Shown here piece by piece: positions 34,627 to 64,000 of a stretch of DNA of 64,000 nt. Made by a program: the position numbers and the translations under genes. The stretch comes from Rufibacter immobilis (GTDB lineage Bacteria; Bacteroidota; Bacteroidia; Cytophagales; Hymenobacteraceae). Below the pieces are notes generated by a model, which did not search any database, was not told the DNA's origin, and worked only from the letters and a program-made list of their open reading frames with translations. Positions within the stretch are counted from its first letter, which is position 1. The number at the start of each line of letters is the position of its first letter. The stretch spans positions 124,001-188,000 of the forward strand of contig NZ_RJJE01000001.1 in the NCBI RefSeq assembly GCF_003721565.1, read 5' to 3'.

Positions 34627-35541
34627 ATGTCAGAAAAGATACTGATTGCCGGGGGTACCGGTTTAGTGGGAACACGTTTGTCAGAGATGCTGATTGACAG
34701 CGGTTATGAGGTGGGCCACCTCAGCCGTACCCCTAACAAGTACGCTCGTTACAAAACCTTTAAGTGGGACTTAGAAAAAGGTCTTATTGACGAAAACGCC
34801 ATTAGGTACGCTGACTATGTCATTAACCTGGCGGGCACCAGCGTAGCCGGCGAGAAATGGTCGGCGGCGCGCAAAAGCCAGATCCTGAGCAGCCGCATCA
34901 AGTCCACGAACCTGCTCTGCCACTATCTGGAGAAAACGCCTAATCATGTGAAGGGCTTTCTGGCTTCCTCGGCGGTGGGCATCTACGGCAACTCCGGTGA
35001 CCGGCTCATGACCGAAGAAAGCAGCTACGGCTCAGATTTCCTGGCCGAAGTATGCAAACAATGGGAGCAGGCTTCGTGGCAAGTGCATAACCTGGGCATC
35101 AGGACCGTTATCTTCCGGATTGGCATTGTGTTGAGCAACAAAGGAGGCGCCCTCCCTCAAATAGCCAAACCCGTGAAAATGATGGCGGGCGCTCCCTTGG
35201 GCTCCGGCAAGCAGTTTATGTCCTGGATTCACATTGACGACTTGTGCCGCCTGTTTATCAGGGCCATGGAAGACCGCCAGATACAGGGAGTGTACAACGC
35301 CGTAGCGCCGCACCCAGCCTCTAACGAGGAACTGACCAGAACACTTGCCAAAGTCATGCACCGGCCCATGGTCTTCCCCAATATTCCGGCCATTGGCTTG
35401 AAATTAGTCTTAGGCGAAATGAGTGAGGTAGTGTTGGGTGGCTCCCGCGTAAGTGCCACCAAAGTACTGCAAACGGGTTTCACTTTTGAGTACAACCACC
35501 TGCAAGAGGCCCTGGAGTCACTCTATGACAAAAACAGCTGA
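34627..35541 (+). CDS. TIGR01777-family NAD(P)-dependent epimerase-like protein
   Basis: The 304-residue protein is an extended SDR with the N-terminal glycine motif IAGGTGLVGTRLSEML. The family phrases VINLAGTSVAGEKWSAARK and SSAVGIYGNSGD are followed by a C-terminal DUF1731 domain (about 250-300) ending in FTFEYNHLQEALESLY. Relatives include E. coli YfcH and plant SulA-like proteins; the reaction is unknown. Confidence 0.9.
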   Translation: MSEKILIAGGTGLVGTRLSEMLIDSGYEVGHLSRTPNKYARYKTFKWDLEKGLIDENAIRYADYVINLAGTSVAGEKWSAARKSQILSSRIKSTNLLCHYLEKTPNHVKGFLASSAVGIYGNSGDRLMTEESSYGSDFLAEVCKQWEQASWQVHNLGIRTVIFRIGIVLSNKGGALPQIAKPVKMMAGAPLGSGKQFMSWIHIDDLCRLFIRAMEDRQIQGVYNAVAPHPASNEELTRTLAKVMHRPMVFPNIPAIGLKLVLGEMSEVVLGGSRVSATKVLQTGFTFEYNHLQEALESLYDKNS

Positions 35542-35599
35542 CAGCGCCAAAACAAGAACGCCCGTTACCAAGTAGCGGGCGTTCTTGTTTTGGCGCTGT
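35541..35599. terminator. Very strong hairpin: 24-bp perfect stem that shares an arm with repeat copy 20
   Basis: Arms 35541-35564 and 35576-35599 are exactly complementary around an 11-base loop. The left arm begins ACAGCGCCAAAACAAG. The right arm contains the left arm of the next palindromic repeat (GTTTTGGCGCTGT), so two hairpins compete for the same bases. Confidence 0.9.
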
Positions 35600-35624
35600 T
35601 TTTGGAAAATAAGCCGCTAAACGC
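35587..35624. repeat. Palindromic repeat copy 20, sharing its left arm with a terminator
   Basis: The left arm GTTTTGGCGCTGTTTTTGG and the right arm AAGCCGCTAAACGCC pair with a few mismatches. Confidence 0.88.
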
Positions 35625-36665
35625 CTCTCCACCCTCCTTGGTTACCTATCCTTCTCTAAAGGGCTTTCTTCCCAGCCCAAGATTCCGAGGCTATGGCATT
35701 CCCCCTTCCGCTGGTTTTGGGCAAAACCAGCGGAAGATGACTACTCACTAATAAGTATTTTATTAAGCCAAACGTGATGTTAAGCACTTTTCCTGAGGCT
35801 TTCTCTGTTCATGGCTCAATTAAATAAGTCAATATTTTATTAAATATATAACATCATAGTACTTTCAATAGCTACAATTAAAAATTGCCTTCACATAGAG
35901 TGCATTAATTGCCAATATTTAAACTATGTTTATTTATTATTATATTTTTTTGATTTAGATCTGGATTGATTTAATTTAGTAGTTGCATTAGAAGAAGTAG
36001 CTAAGCAAAGACAAGTACAAAAATAGAATAAACCTAATATAAAGATCTGCCGGTATTGCTGCTATTAATAAGGCAAGGATAGCTGAAAATGAATGAGTCC
36101 TTCACATAATTCATTAGTCAAAATGAAAAGCTTTTACCCCTTCTAACCTTAACATATTAGTTCAGCAAGGCGTTAGCAACACTCTAAAACACTCTCAATA
36201 AGCGCCTTTCACAGCTCCCCACTCCAGAATTTTGCTTTTGCTGTGTCTATGGAAGAACAAGAACGTTGAGGTTATCTGGTTCTGTTACCTTAACATTACC
36301 CATACGTTATAGCTAAGTAAAATTAAATATTCTCAGGACTAAAGTTCATTTTTTACAAACCAAATCAACTAGTTTCAACGTATCTACTTCGCTCACCCTT
36401 AGCAACACCATAATAAATATCAATTTAAACATATATAGATCTGGAGTGTTCTCTGGATAGAACCTGAAAAAGAATCCATAGGCAGACCATTAGAGTTCAA
36501 TGCAACTTTACTGATCTGTCTGAGCAGGCTTCTTTCAAGAATGATTTCTGGTAACGTAGCCGCGTGCGTCAATGCGTCTACCATCTCTTTTGATAATGTG
36601 CTGCATGAACATAAGAACAGCTGCGTCCAGCAAAAAAAGACTAGGCTGTTATTAATCTCGGAATT
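35625..36665. other. Long AT-rich non-coding gap before the signalling and polysaccharide region
   Basis: I see no credible gene in about 1 kb. A perfect 14-bp stem with a GGGC loop (35705-35718 with 35723-35736, arm CTTCCGCTGGTTTT) lies near the left end and has no T-run. The rest is AT-rich with many stops in all frames. A short inverted repeat GTTCT...AGAAC sits near 36449-36464. It may hold a long leader or regulatory region of the kinase gene, or be a scar of past insertion. Confidence 0.5.
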
Positions 36666-38537
36666 ATGGAAAAATCAGTATTACCCCCTGATTACCGCTC
36701 AACTCCCCTTTTGGCATCTATGGTAGTGCAGATGAAACAATGGCTTACCTATCAGTTCTGTCAGTTGCAAAAAGGATCTTTGAAGGAGCTTTTCTTCCAT
36801 ACACCCGTCCCCCACTACTTACTCCCGGAAGAAACCGGAACTCAAGACTTGAACTTTTATAGTTCTGTTCCAAAGGAACGTACCCATTCACCCAGCCATA
36901 AATACACTCCCGTAGATATGCCTGGCGGATTACTTGCAGGCAACTGGGGGCTTATTTCCCCAATAGGAACAGCCCATATCCCTGCGCAACCAATTGGCCT
37001 GTGGCAACTCACCGCAGATCTTCTCAAAGCAGGAAGTTGGGAATACAACGTGCAAACAGATCACTTTTTAAGTACAGACAATCTCCCCTCTCTTTTCAAG
37101 GCGCCATCAAAATCTTTCAACAGTTTCTCAACGATAATAAATTTGTTACGGGAAGAAGATCAGAAGAGCCTGAGAGAACACTGGGAGCTGGCGGTGGCCT
37201 ACGGCGCTACATTTGACCAAACAGTACGCCTAGCCGACCACACAGCCACAGAGGTGTGGCTGCAGATGAAAGCTAAGCCTGTTTTCAAAGACACTGCGCT
37301 TTTGAAGGTTGTTGGCACTGTACAAGATGTTTCTGAGCATGTGCACCAAGAACAGCAATTAATCCGCGCTAAAACCAGCGCAGAGGAAGCCACCAGAGCT
37401 AAAACGGAATTTGTCTCCCTCATCAGCCATGAGATAAGAACTCCCATCAACGCCATCATTGGCCTTACGCACCTGTTGCTGCAGGAGGAAAAAGCAGGGC
37501 AGGAAAACCGGAATCTACAGAGCATCAATTTTTCGGCGCAAAGTCTGCTTTCGCTCATTAATAACACCTTGGAGTACTCCAGAATAGACATGGGCAAGGT
37601 AGAGCTGGAGCAAGTGAACTTCAACCTGAAAGACCTCCTGAAGAACATCTACCAATCCTTGGCCCTGAGAGCCGCAGAAAAGCAACTTGCTTTTGACTTG
37701 ATCCTTGATCCGCATCTTCCGCAGGAGATCACCGGTGACTCCGCAAGACTGACGCAGATCATCAACAACCTCACCAGCAACGCCCTTAAGTTCACCAAGC
37801 AAGGGCGGGTCAGTATCTCAGCGGAGGTGCTCTATCAGTCAGACAAGGACTGCGTGCTTCAGTTTGCTATTTCAGATACCGGTATAGGCATCCATCCAGA
37901 CCAGCAGGAGCAAATCTTTGAGAATTTTGTGCAGGCCAATGCGTCCATCCATCGGCATTACGGCGGAACCGGGCTTGGCCTGGCCATCACCAAGCAGTTG
38001 GTGGAGCTTCAGAAAGGCACTGTAAAGGTAGAAAGCACGCCAGGCAAAGGCTCTGTGTTTACTGTGAAGCTACGGTATCTGAAGGAACAGGCCCCTGCCG
38101 TGAAAGCGGTACCCGCCACCGCTCAAGCCCAAGACCCCAACAGCCTGAAGGAAGCAAGGGTTTTGGTGGTGGAAGACAATGAATTCAACCAGATGGTGGT
38201 AAGCCAATTGCTGGCGGGCTGGCAGGCCACCGCTGAACTGGCCGAAAACGGTTTGGTGGCCTTGGAGAAACTCAAAGACAAAGCCTATGACATAATTCTC
38301 ATGGACCTCCACATGCCCTTCATGAACGGTTATGATGCCATGGCTGAAATCAGGAAACTGGGCCTAAAGATACCCATTGTGGCCTTAACCGCTACCGTGG
38401 GCCAGGAGGAGAAGTTGAGAATTGCAGCCGTTGGTGCCAATGATTATTTGGCTAAACCTTTCAGCCCGCAGCAGTTGTACCAGAAGCTCTCAAAACACCT
38501 GCAACTGCTGGAGGAGAAAACGGTGGTTATGGTGTAA
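36666..38537 (+). CDS. Hybrid sensor histidine kinase with receiver domain
   Basis: The 623-residue protein has no clear membrane segment. A PAS-like sensor (about 105-225, [23 protein letters not shown]) is followed by HisKA with the phospho-acceptor His255 in [12 protein letters not shown]. The HATPase domain shows the N box [21 protein letters not shown] and [15 protein letters not shown]-terminal receiver (about 495-615) has the acidic VVEDNEFN, phospho-acceptor Asp547 in ILMDLHMP and Lys in YLAKPFSP. Phosphate would pass His to Asp and then to an Hpt protein; an Hpt-containing protein lies two genes downstream. Confidence 0.92.
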
Positions 38538-62631: not shown

Positions 62632-62672
62632 AGAACCCTCCCCCTTATTCTGTGAACAAAGAGGAGGGTTCT
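62632..62672 (-). terminator. Terminator downstream of the penicillin-binding protein gene
   Basis: A 10-bp stem (AGAACCCTCC with GGAGGGTTCT) has a loop of about 21 bases. On the reverse strand it follows the PBP gene, but only after repeat copy 27, so the order is gene, repeat, hairpin. Confidence 0.55.
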
Positions 62673-62710
62673 GTTTTGGGCTTAATTTTGGAAAAAGGGC
62701 CGCTAAACGC
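62672..62710. repeat. Palindromic repeat copy 27, touching the PBP stop codon
   Basis: The left arm TGTTTTGGGCTTAATTTTGG is divergent, the right arm GGGCCGCTAAACGC intact. It ends at the base before the reverse-strand stop codon. Confidence 0.82.
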
Positions 62711-64000
62711 CTAAAACTGTGAGGAGACGCTGTCGTTCATTTGCTCCAGCATGGTGTCTACGGCCGTTGAATCGGTTACTTTAGGTCTACGTGGCACTAC
62801 CGTAATACAATTGTACGGCTTCTTGATCTTTACCGCCGGCTTAGGGAACGTACCGAGCTTGATGCCCAGGTCTGGGTCACGGTACACTTTCTCCATGAAC
62901 CGCCCAAAGATGGGCAGTGCCGTTTTAGAGCCCTCGCCGGTGGCCGAGGTCCGGAAGTGGATGCTTCGGTCTTCGCCGCCTACCCACACGCCGGTCACCA
63001 GATCTTTGGTTACGCCCATGTACCAGCCGTCTGAGTGGTTAGAGGTAGTACCGGTCTTGCCGCCAATCTGGTTGCCTTTCTTCCAGAGGTCGTATTCCCA
63101 GAGGGCCTGTGAGGTACCGCCGGGTTCTTCCATGGTTCCTTTGAGCATGTGCACCATCAGAAAGGCGGTTTCTTCGGTAATAACCCGTTTCTGCTGCGGA
63201 TTGAACTGTTCTATAATGTTCCCGTTGCGGTCTTCAATGCGCATCACCAATATAGGTTTGTTCAGGAAACCGTTGTTCACAAAAGTGCTGTAGGCGTTCA
63301 CCATCTCGTAGATGCTCACGTCTGAAGACCCCAACCCAATGGATGGCACGGCCTCAATGGGGCTGGTGATGCCTAGGCGGCGGGCAAACTTCCGGACGGT
63401 CTCCGGTCCTATGGCCTCCGTCAATTGGGCGGTCACGGTATTGATGGACCGGCCCATGGCGTGGCGCAAGGTCATCTGTCGACCGGAGATGGAGTGGTCT
63501 GCGTTATGGGGCGTCCACTCCATCGGCTTGCCGTTCTCCACGTATTTGATGGTGACCCGCTGGTCCTGGATTTTGTCACAGGGCGAGTAGCCTCCGTCAA
63601 TGGCGGCGGCGTACACAAAGGGCTTAAACGTAGAACCGGGCTGGCGCTTGGCTTGCTTCACGTGGTCATACTTGAAGTTCTCATAGTCAATACCGCCCAC
63701 CCAGGCTTTGATGTGCCCCGTGAAAGGATCCATGGTCATCATGCCGGCGCGCAGGAATTTCTTGTAGTACCGCAGGGAGTCCATGGAACTCATGGTCATT
63801 TCCTGGGGGCCTTTCCAGCTGAAGACGGTCATCTTCTTAGGCGTGTTCAGTTCACGGATAATGGCGGCTTCGTCGTTTCCGTATTTGTTTTTGAGCGACT
63901 GATACACGCCGGTACGCTTGATGGCGCTTTCTATGAACCCCGGAATTTCCTTGTCCTTGTCATCTACCCAAGGGTTGCGGCCGCGCCAGTGGCTGTCAAA
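62711..64000 (-). CDS. Class A penicillin-binding protein (PBP1A-like), C-terminal part
   Basis: The frame stays open to the window edge, so the N-terminal glycosyltransferase domain lies outside. The visible 429 residues start FDSHWRGRNPWVDDKDK and contain the transpeptidase domain with its three motifs: GSTFKPF (Ser nucleophile and Lys), GRSINTVTAQL (SxN) and IGGKTGTTSNHSDGW (KTG). It cross-links peptidoglycan in the periplasm. The C-terminus is short and Pro/Lys-rich. A GTG at 63905-63907 is an internal codon, not a start. Confidence 0.93.
   Translation of the reverse strand, partial: FDSHWRGRNPWVDDKDKEIPGFIESAIKRTGVYQSLKNKYGNDEAAIIRELNTPKKMTVFSWKGPQEMTMSSMDSLRYYKKFLRAGMMTMDPFTGHIKAWVGGIDYENFKYDHVKQAKRQPGSTFKPFVYAAAIDGGYSPCDKIQDQRVTIKYVENGKPMEWTPHNADHSISGRQMTLRHAMGRSINTVTAQLTEAIGPETVRKFARRLGITSPIEAVPSIGLGSSDVSIYEMVNAYSTFVNNGFLNKPILVMRIEDRNGNIIEQFNPQQKRVITEETAFLMVHMLKGTMEEPGGTSQALWEYDLWKKGNQIGGKTGTTSNHSDGWYMGVTKDLVTGVWVGGEDRSIHFRTSATGEGSKTALPIFGRFMEKVYRDPDLGIKLGTFPKPAVKIKKPYNCITVVPRRPKVTDSTAVDTMLEQMNDSVSSQF

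Follow-up and report, generated by a model that had tools for sequence, protein, structure and literature searches.

A long predicted terminator stem running into the arm of an abutting palindromic repeat behind an epimerase-family gene of Rufibacter immobilis

The end of an epimerase-family gene in Rufibacter immobilis is followed by three segments, A, B, and C, of which B appears able to pair with either of its neighbors. The question raised by this arrangement is whether it forms two mutually exclusive strong hairpins with the geometry of an attenuator, or reflects a terminator that grew out of a repeat, the two options that a sequence-only reading had put forward. The window analyzed here is a stretch of 64,000 nucleotides (G000:C8:124001-188000), part of a 4.77-Mb genome, and the features of the locus are the following.

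34627-35541, plus strand: epimerase-family gene (Pfam Epimerase and DUF1731), from the open reading frame listing and Pfam
35541-35564, plus strand: segment A, 5' arm of the putative terminator stem, exact reverse complement of 35576-35599
35565-35575, plus strand: top of the hairpin, with extra pairs including one G-U and a 3-nt loop, from the fold
35576-35599, plus strand: segment B, 3' arm of the putative terminator stem, from the complementarity to A and the fold
35585-35624, plus strand: degenerate copy of a genus-specific palindromic repeat, from a sequence profile and a covariance model
35599-35603, plus strand: T-run behind the full stem, read from the sequence
35610-35624, plus strand: segment C, which forms the right arm of the degenerate copy above and is complementary to B at 8 of 12 positions

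The epimerase-family gene, which was matched in 29 of the 29 relatives searched, ends with the stop codon TGA at 35539-35541, and the last base of this codon is the first base of segment A (ACAGCGCCAAAACAAGAACGCCCG). A and B pair perfectly, as had been claimed, in a stem of 24 bp, or of 28-29 bp if the pairs at the top are counted. The region, 121 nt in all, folds with a free energy of −56.6 kcal/mol, and comparison with dinucleotide shuffles gives z = −8.3. The first of the five T at the stem end is paired with A35541, and a second T-run, GTTTT at 35587-35591, lies inside the stem. Both features by which an intrinsic terminator is recognized are found, a stable GC-containing hairpin after the gene end and a T-run immediately behind the stem (35599-35603), and from them we infer that transcription would terminate at the A-B hairpin. 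No open reading frame of at least 80 aa was found over about 1 kb on the 3' side of the hairpin, and the first plus-strand gene beyond it, at 36666, encodes a histidine kinase.

Two observations concern the surroundings of the locus. A further near-perfect hairpin without a T-run, CTTCCGCTGGTTTTG-GG-CAAAACCAGCGGAAG, lies about 80 nt downstream (35705-35736) and matches the repeat covariance model weakly. On a larger scale, about 27 kb (window positions 35625-62660, with kinase, polysaccharide, and glycosyltransferase genes) lie between the epimerase gene and a convergent transpeptidase gene at 62711-63907, and in the congener G008 the epimerase and transpeptidase genes are only about 106 bp apart; both boundaries of this segment have a terminator-like stem and a repeat, the right one at about 62636-62711.

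The two pairings of B differ greatly in strength. B-C by itself folds at −8.4 kcal/mol, and even with the A arm forbidden to pair the region reaches only −15.2 kcal/mol, versus −52.1 kcal/mol for A-B. In the plus-strand RNA, both arms of A-B have been made by the time transcription reaches C, and in the minus-strand RNA the same A-B stem dominates. The energy gap, together with the early formation of A-B on one strand and its dominance on the other, therefore leaves one strong hairpin, and the notion of two strong hairpins excluding each other is not borne out. A canonical repeat copy folds at about −30 kcal/mol, and since B-C is much weaker, the copy at 35585-35624 is a decayed one. The B-C pairing very probably has no regulatory part in the RNA of the epimerase gene.

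The final 12-14 bases of B are the left arm of the palindromic repeat, and the claim that B uses an arm of a repeat copy holds: the overlapping copy at 35585-35624 is genuine, with 41.8 bits in a covariance model whose training set included it, and it is also found by the sequence profile. The description of B and C as the two arms of a palindromic repeat was thus right as to the copy and wrong as to the pairing, which extends to only 8 of 12 positions. About 26 copies were found in the window, the designation of this one as copy 20 being the numbering of the sequence-only reading itself.

The consensus of the repeat, about 40 bp long, is GCGTTTAGGGGCTGTTTTTGGAAAAACAGCCCCTAAACGC. Genome statistics for the repeat were taken from an 840-kb sample, in which nhmmer found 329 copies, one per about 2.6 kb, corresponding by extrapolation to roughly 1,900 copies per genome; a strict palindrome pattern gave 1,101 matches genome-wide. 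Of the 484 intergenic regions of at least 60 bp delimited with a simple ORF caller, 256 contain a copy, and repeat density is highest between convergent genes and lowest between divergent genes. With the covariance model, every one of the 16 Rufibacter-group genomes gave 134-150 matches (only 150 candidates were scored per genome, and one palindrome may be matched on either strand), the 13 other genera searched gave 0-2, and 200 kb from two genomes of other genera gave none. We found no description of this genus-wide family in a literature search of limited coverage, and as far as that search shows it is undescribed.

Within G000, the genome of the window, the repeat arms vary almost independently and their pairing is hardly above the expectation for independence, and this speaks against a general selection for an RNA hairpin. 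Selection acting on the repeat as RNA was accordingly rejected and no conserved fold is claimed, the strong covariation across relatives being biased by the fact that most relative rows were picked for being palindromic. A separate set of 168 asymmetric copies in the 840 kb has a well-conserved right arm, AAAAAGAGCCGCTAAACGC, and a variable left arm resembling the GTTTTGGGCC form of the congeners; these copies look as if they had been half-converted.

The orthologous gene end in relatives bears on the order in which terminator and repeat were acquired. In 11 of 15 congener orthologs the stop codon is followed, at a distance of 7-25 nt, by a stem of 15-26 pairs that exceeds in length the stems of all 30 shuffles made for it; no long hairpin was found at this gene end in 4 of the 15 congeners or in three family members outside the genus. 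The stem sequences differ from one another. The 5' arm in G002 has AAAACAAGAA in common with the locus, without the CAGCGCC part of the A arm, and this shared piece is short enough that it could be a coincidence. A repeat or repeat-like remnant stands closely behind the stem in G003, G007, G008, G010, and G015, and none was detected closely behind it in G004, G011, and G014. Since the hairpin is kept in congeners with and without the repeat, it is the more constant of the two, and the repeat was likely added later; likewise, because some congeners without a detected repeat keep a terminator there, the terminator is unlikely to derive from the repeat. The proposal that the terminator grew out of the repeat is therefore probably wrong as to origin. 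It survives in another form, in that the outer arms of the stem extend into the adjoining repeat arm, a layout that recurs in the genome. We also observed that a diverged repeat is often present in the same intergenic region of congeners (the orthologous regions of G002, G008, G010, and G011), which suggests either old sites homogenized within species or repeated insertion.

Given the stem and where it lies, the hairpins seen in relatives, the repeat identified beside it, the gap in energy, and the recurrent mirrored extensions, we consider A-B very likely to be an intrinsic terminator that has fused with the arm of the repeat next to it. The hairpin would be the Rho-independent terminator of the epimerase gene and may work in both directions, because the hairpin of G008 stands between two convergent genes. 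A repeat copy abuts its 3' side, and its left arm contributes the T-run and the stem base. The outer part of the 5' arm is an exact mirror of that left arm and most likely arose when the nascent strand switched template at the hairpin (quasipalindrome perfection). In quasipalindrome template-switch mutation, as outlined in PMC7202029 and PMC3820800, imperfect inverted-repeat arms become perfect or extended.

The genome contains further structures of this kind. Among 41 stems that abut repeats in the 840 kb, four extend at least 8 pairs into the repeat arm versus 0.55 expected from swapping repeat cores (at most 3 in 500 swaps), a statistic that rests on 4 cases; the extension at A-B, of 14 pairs, is the longest of the 41. 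A similar layout is found at L003, L004, L006, and C8:393673-393736. An initial ("up-arm") test of the overlap of stems with repeat arms, whose null kept the A/T-run pairing, gave no excess. The repeats themselves show the same tendency, with at least 8 mirrored flanking pairs at 44 of 159 symmetric copies versus 1.1 expected. In the sampled genomes, 100 kb hold about 0-4 stems whose pairing runs on for at least 5 pairs behind their own T-run; such stems are found also without the repeat, including in two genera that lack it. Because stems that pass their T-run keep recurring, as do repeats whose unique flanks are mirrored, outward mirroring appears plausible as a process, and if driven by template switching it would explain extensions, T-run-passing stems, and mirrored flanks together. 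For the A-arm extension itself, we put a template-switch origin at about even chances.

Separately, four terminator-like hairpins of G000 without a repeat have stems in which pairing goes on behind the T-run, through unique DNA that is perfectly mirrored (C8:396244-396327, C8:66609-66670, C10:3751-3822, and C8:396802-396863).

A serious rival, for terminators alone, is that the stem of the same terminator was lengthened stepwise, with strong or bidirectional termination as the selected trait, and not by template switching, for which we see a real chance, though one clearly short of even. The position of the G008 hairpin between convergent genes fits such selection, as does the abundance of long terminator-like stems in G000, but pairs beyond the T-run lie outside the terminated RNA and should not aid termination in that direction, and mirrored flanks are frequent also where a repeat has neither a T-run nor an A-run at the base of its stem (28 of the 44). 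We regard it as improbable that segment A is what remains of another, older copy of the repeat that lost its left half, leaving the terminator enclosed by two repeat arms: A does resemble the right repeat arm, and the order arm-terminator-arm is seen at C8:393673-393736, but A starts on the stop codon and the preceding coding end, ..GACAAAAACAGCTGA, is conserved in congeners as coding, so there is no room for the left half. An attenuator-like switch, with A-B as terminator and B-C as antiterminator controlling read-through into downstream genes, can point to a segment B with some complementarity to both A and C but is very unlikely indeed, because no open reading frame of at least 80 aa follows for about 1 kb, B-C is weak, not of comparable stability, and forms later than A-B, the hairpin starts on a stop codon and not ahead of a regulated gene in the same transcript, C is missing from some orthologs that keep the hairpin, and no Rfam family comes near its gathering score (the hairpin matches MIR7510, threonine leader, and SpF43, tried as known RNA families, are all far below theirs).

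The fused terminator and repeat arm are thus mostly ordinary, a terminator adjoining a repeat, and modest in themselves. More tentatively, and with less than even confidence, we propose that the genus carries palindromes of about 40 bp (in G000 perhaps about 1,900 copies, in about half of the intergenic regions) and that hairpins grow outward by mirroring their flanks; if this is true, repeat arms become built into terminators, and the A-B locus is one product of such growth. The repeat family and the mirrored flanks are more interesting than the locus and merit their own study. One genus with many mirrored-flank hairpins would make it possible to test whether template switching at hairpins shapes terminators over evolution.

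Among known systems, Neisserial DNA uptake sequences occur as inverted pairs in terminators. The Rufibacter repeat resembles them as an abundant genome-wide repeat built into terminator stems but differs in that its unit is a palindrome of about 40 bp of which the left arm alone enters the stem.

REP elements are defined by GTAG- and CGTC-tagged palindromes (PMC3733652). The Rufibacter repeat is like them a short, high-copy, mostly intergenic palindrome, with 292 of 328 placed copies outside predicted ORFs, but its consensus is untagged, neither GTAG nor CGTC being present in GCGTTTAGGGGCTGTTTTTGGAAAAACAGCCCCTAAACGC, and a transposase link is not established: the genome has one Y1_Tnp (RAYT-like) gene (G000:C1:452724-452942), such genes are present also in genera without the repeat, and the congener G006 has the repeat and no Y1_Tnp match.

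With quasipalindrome mutation, as described in PMC7202029 and PMC3820800, the A-B locus shares the perfection or extension of the arms, which here is deduced from sequence patterns. With intrinsic terminators it shares a GC-containing stem right after the stop codon followed by a T-run, and a hairpin kept at the site in most congeners; it differs from ordinary ones in its unusually long stem, which continues pairing past an internal T-run into an interspersed repeat.
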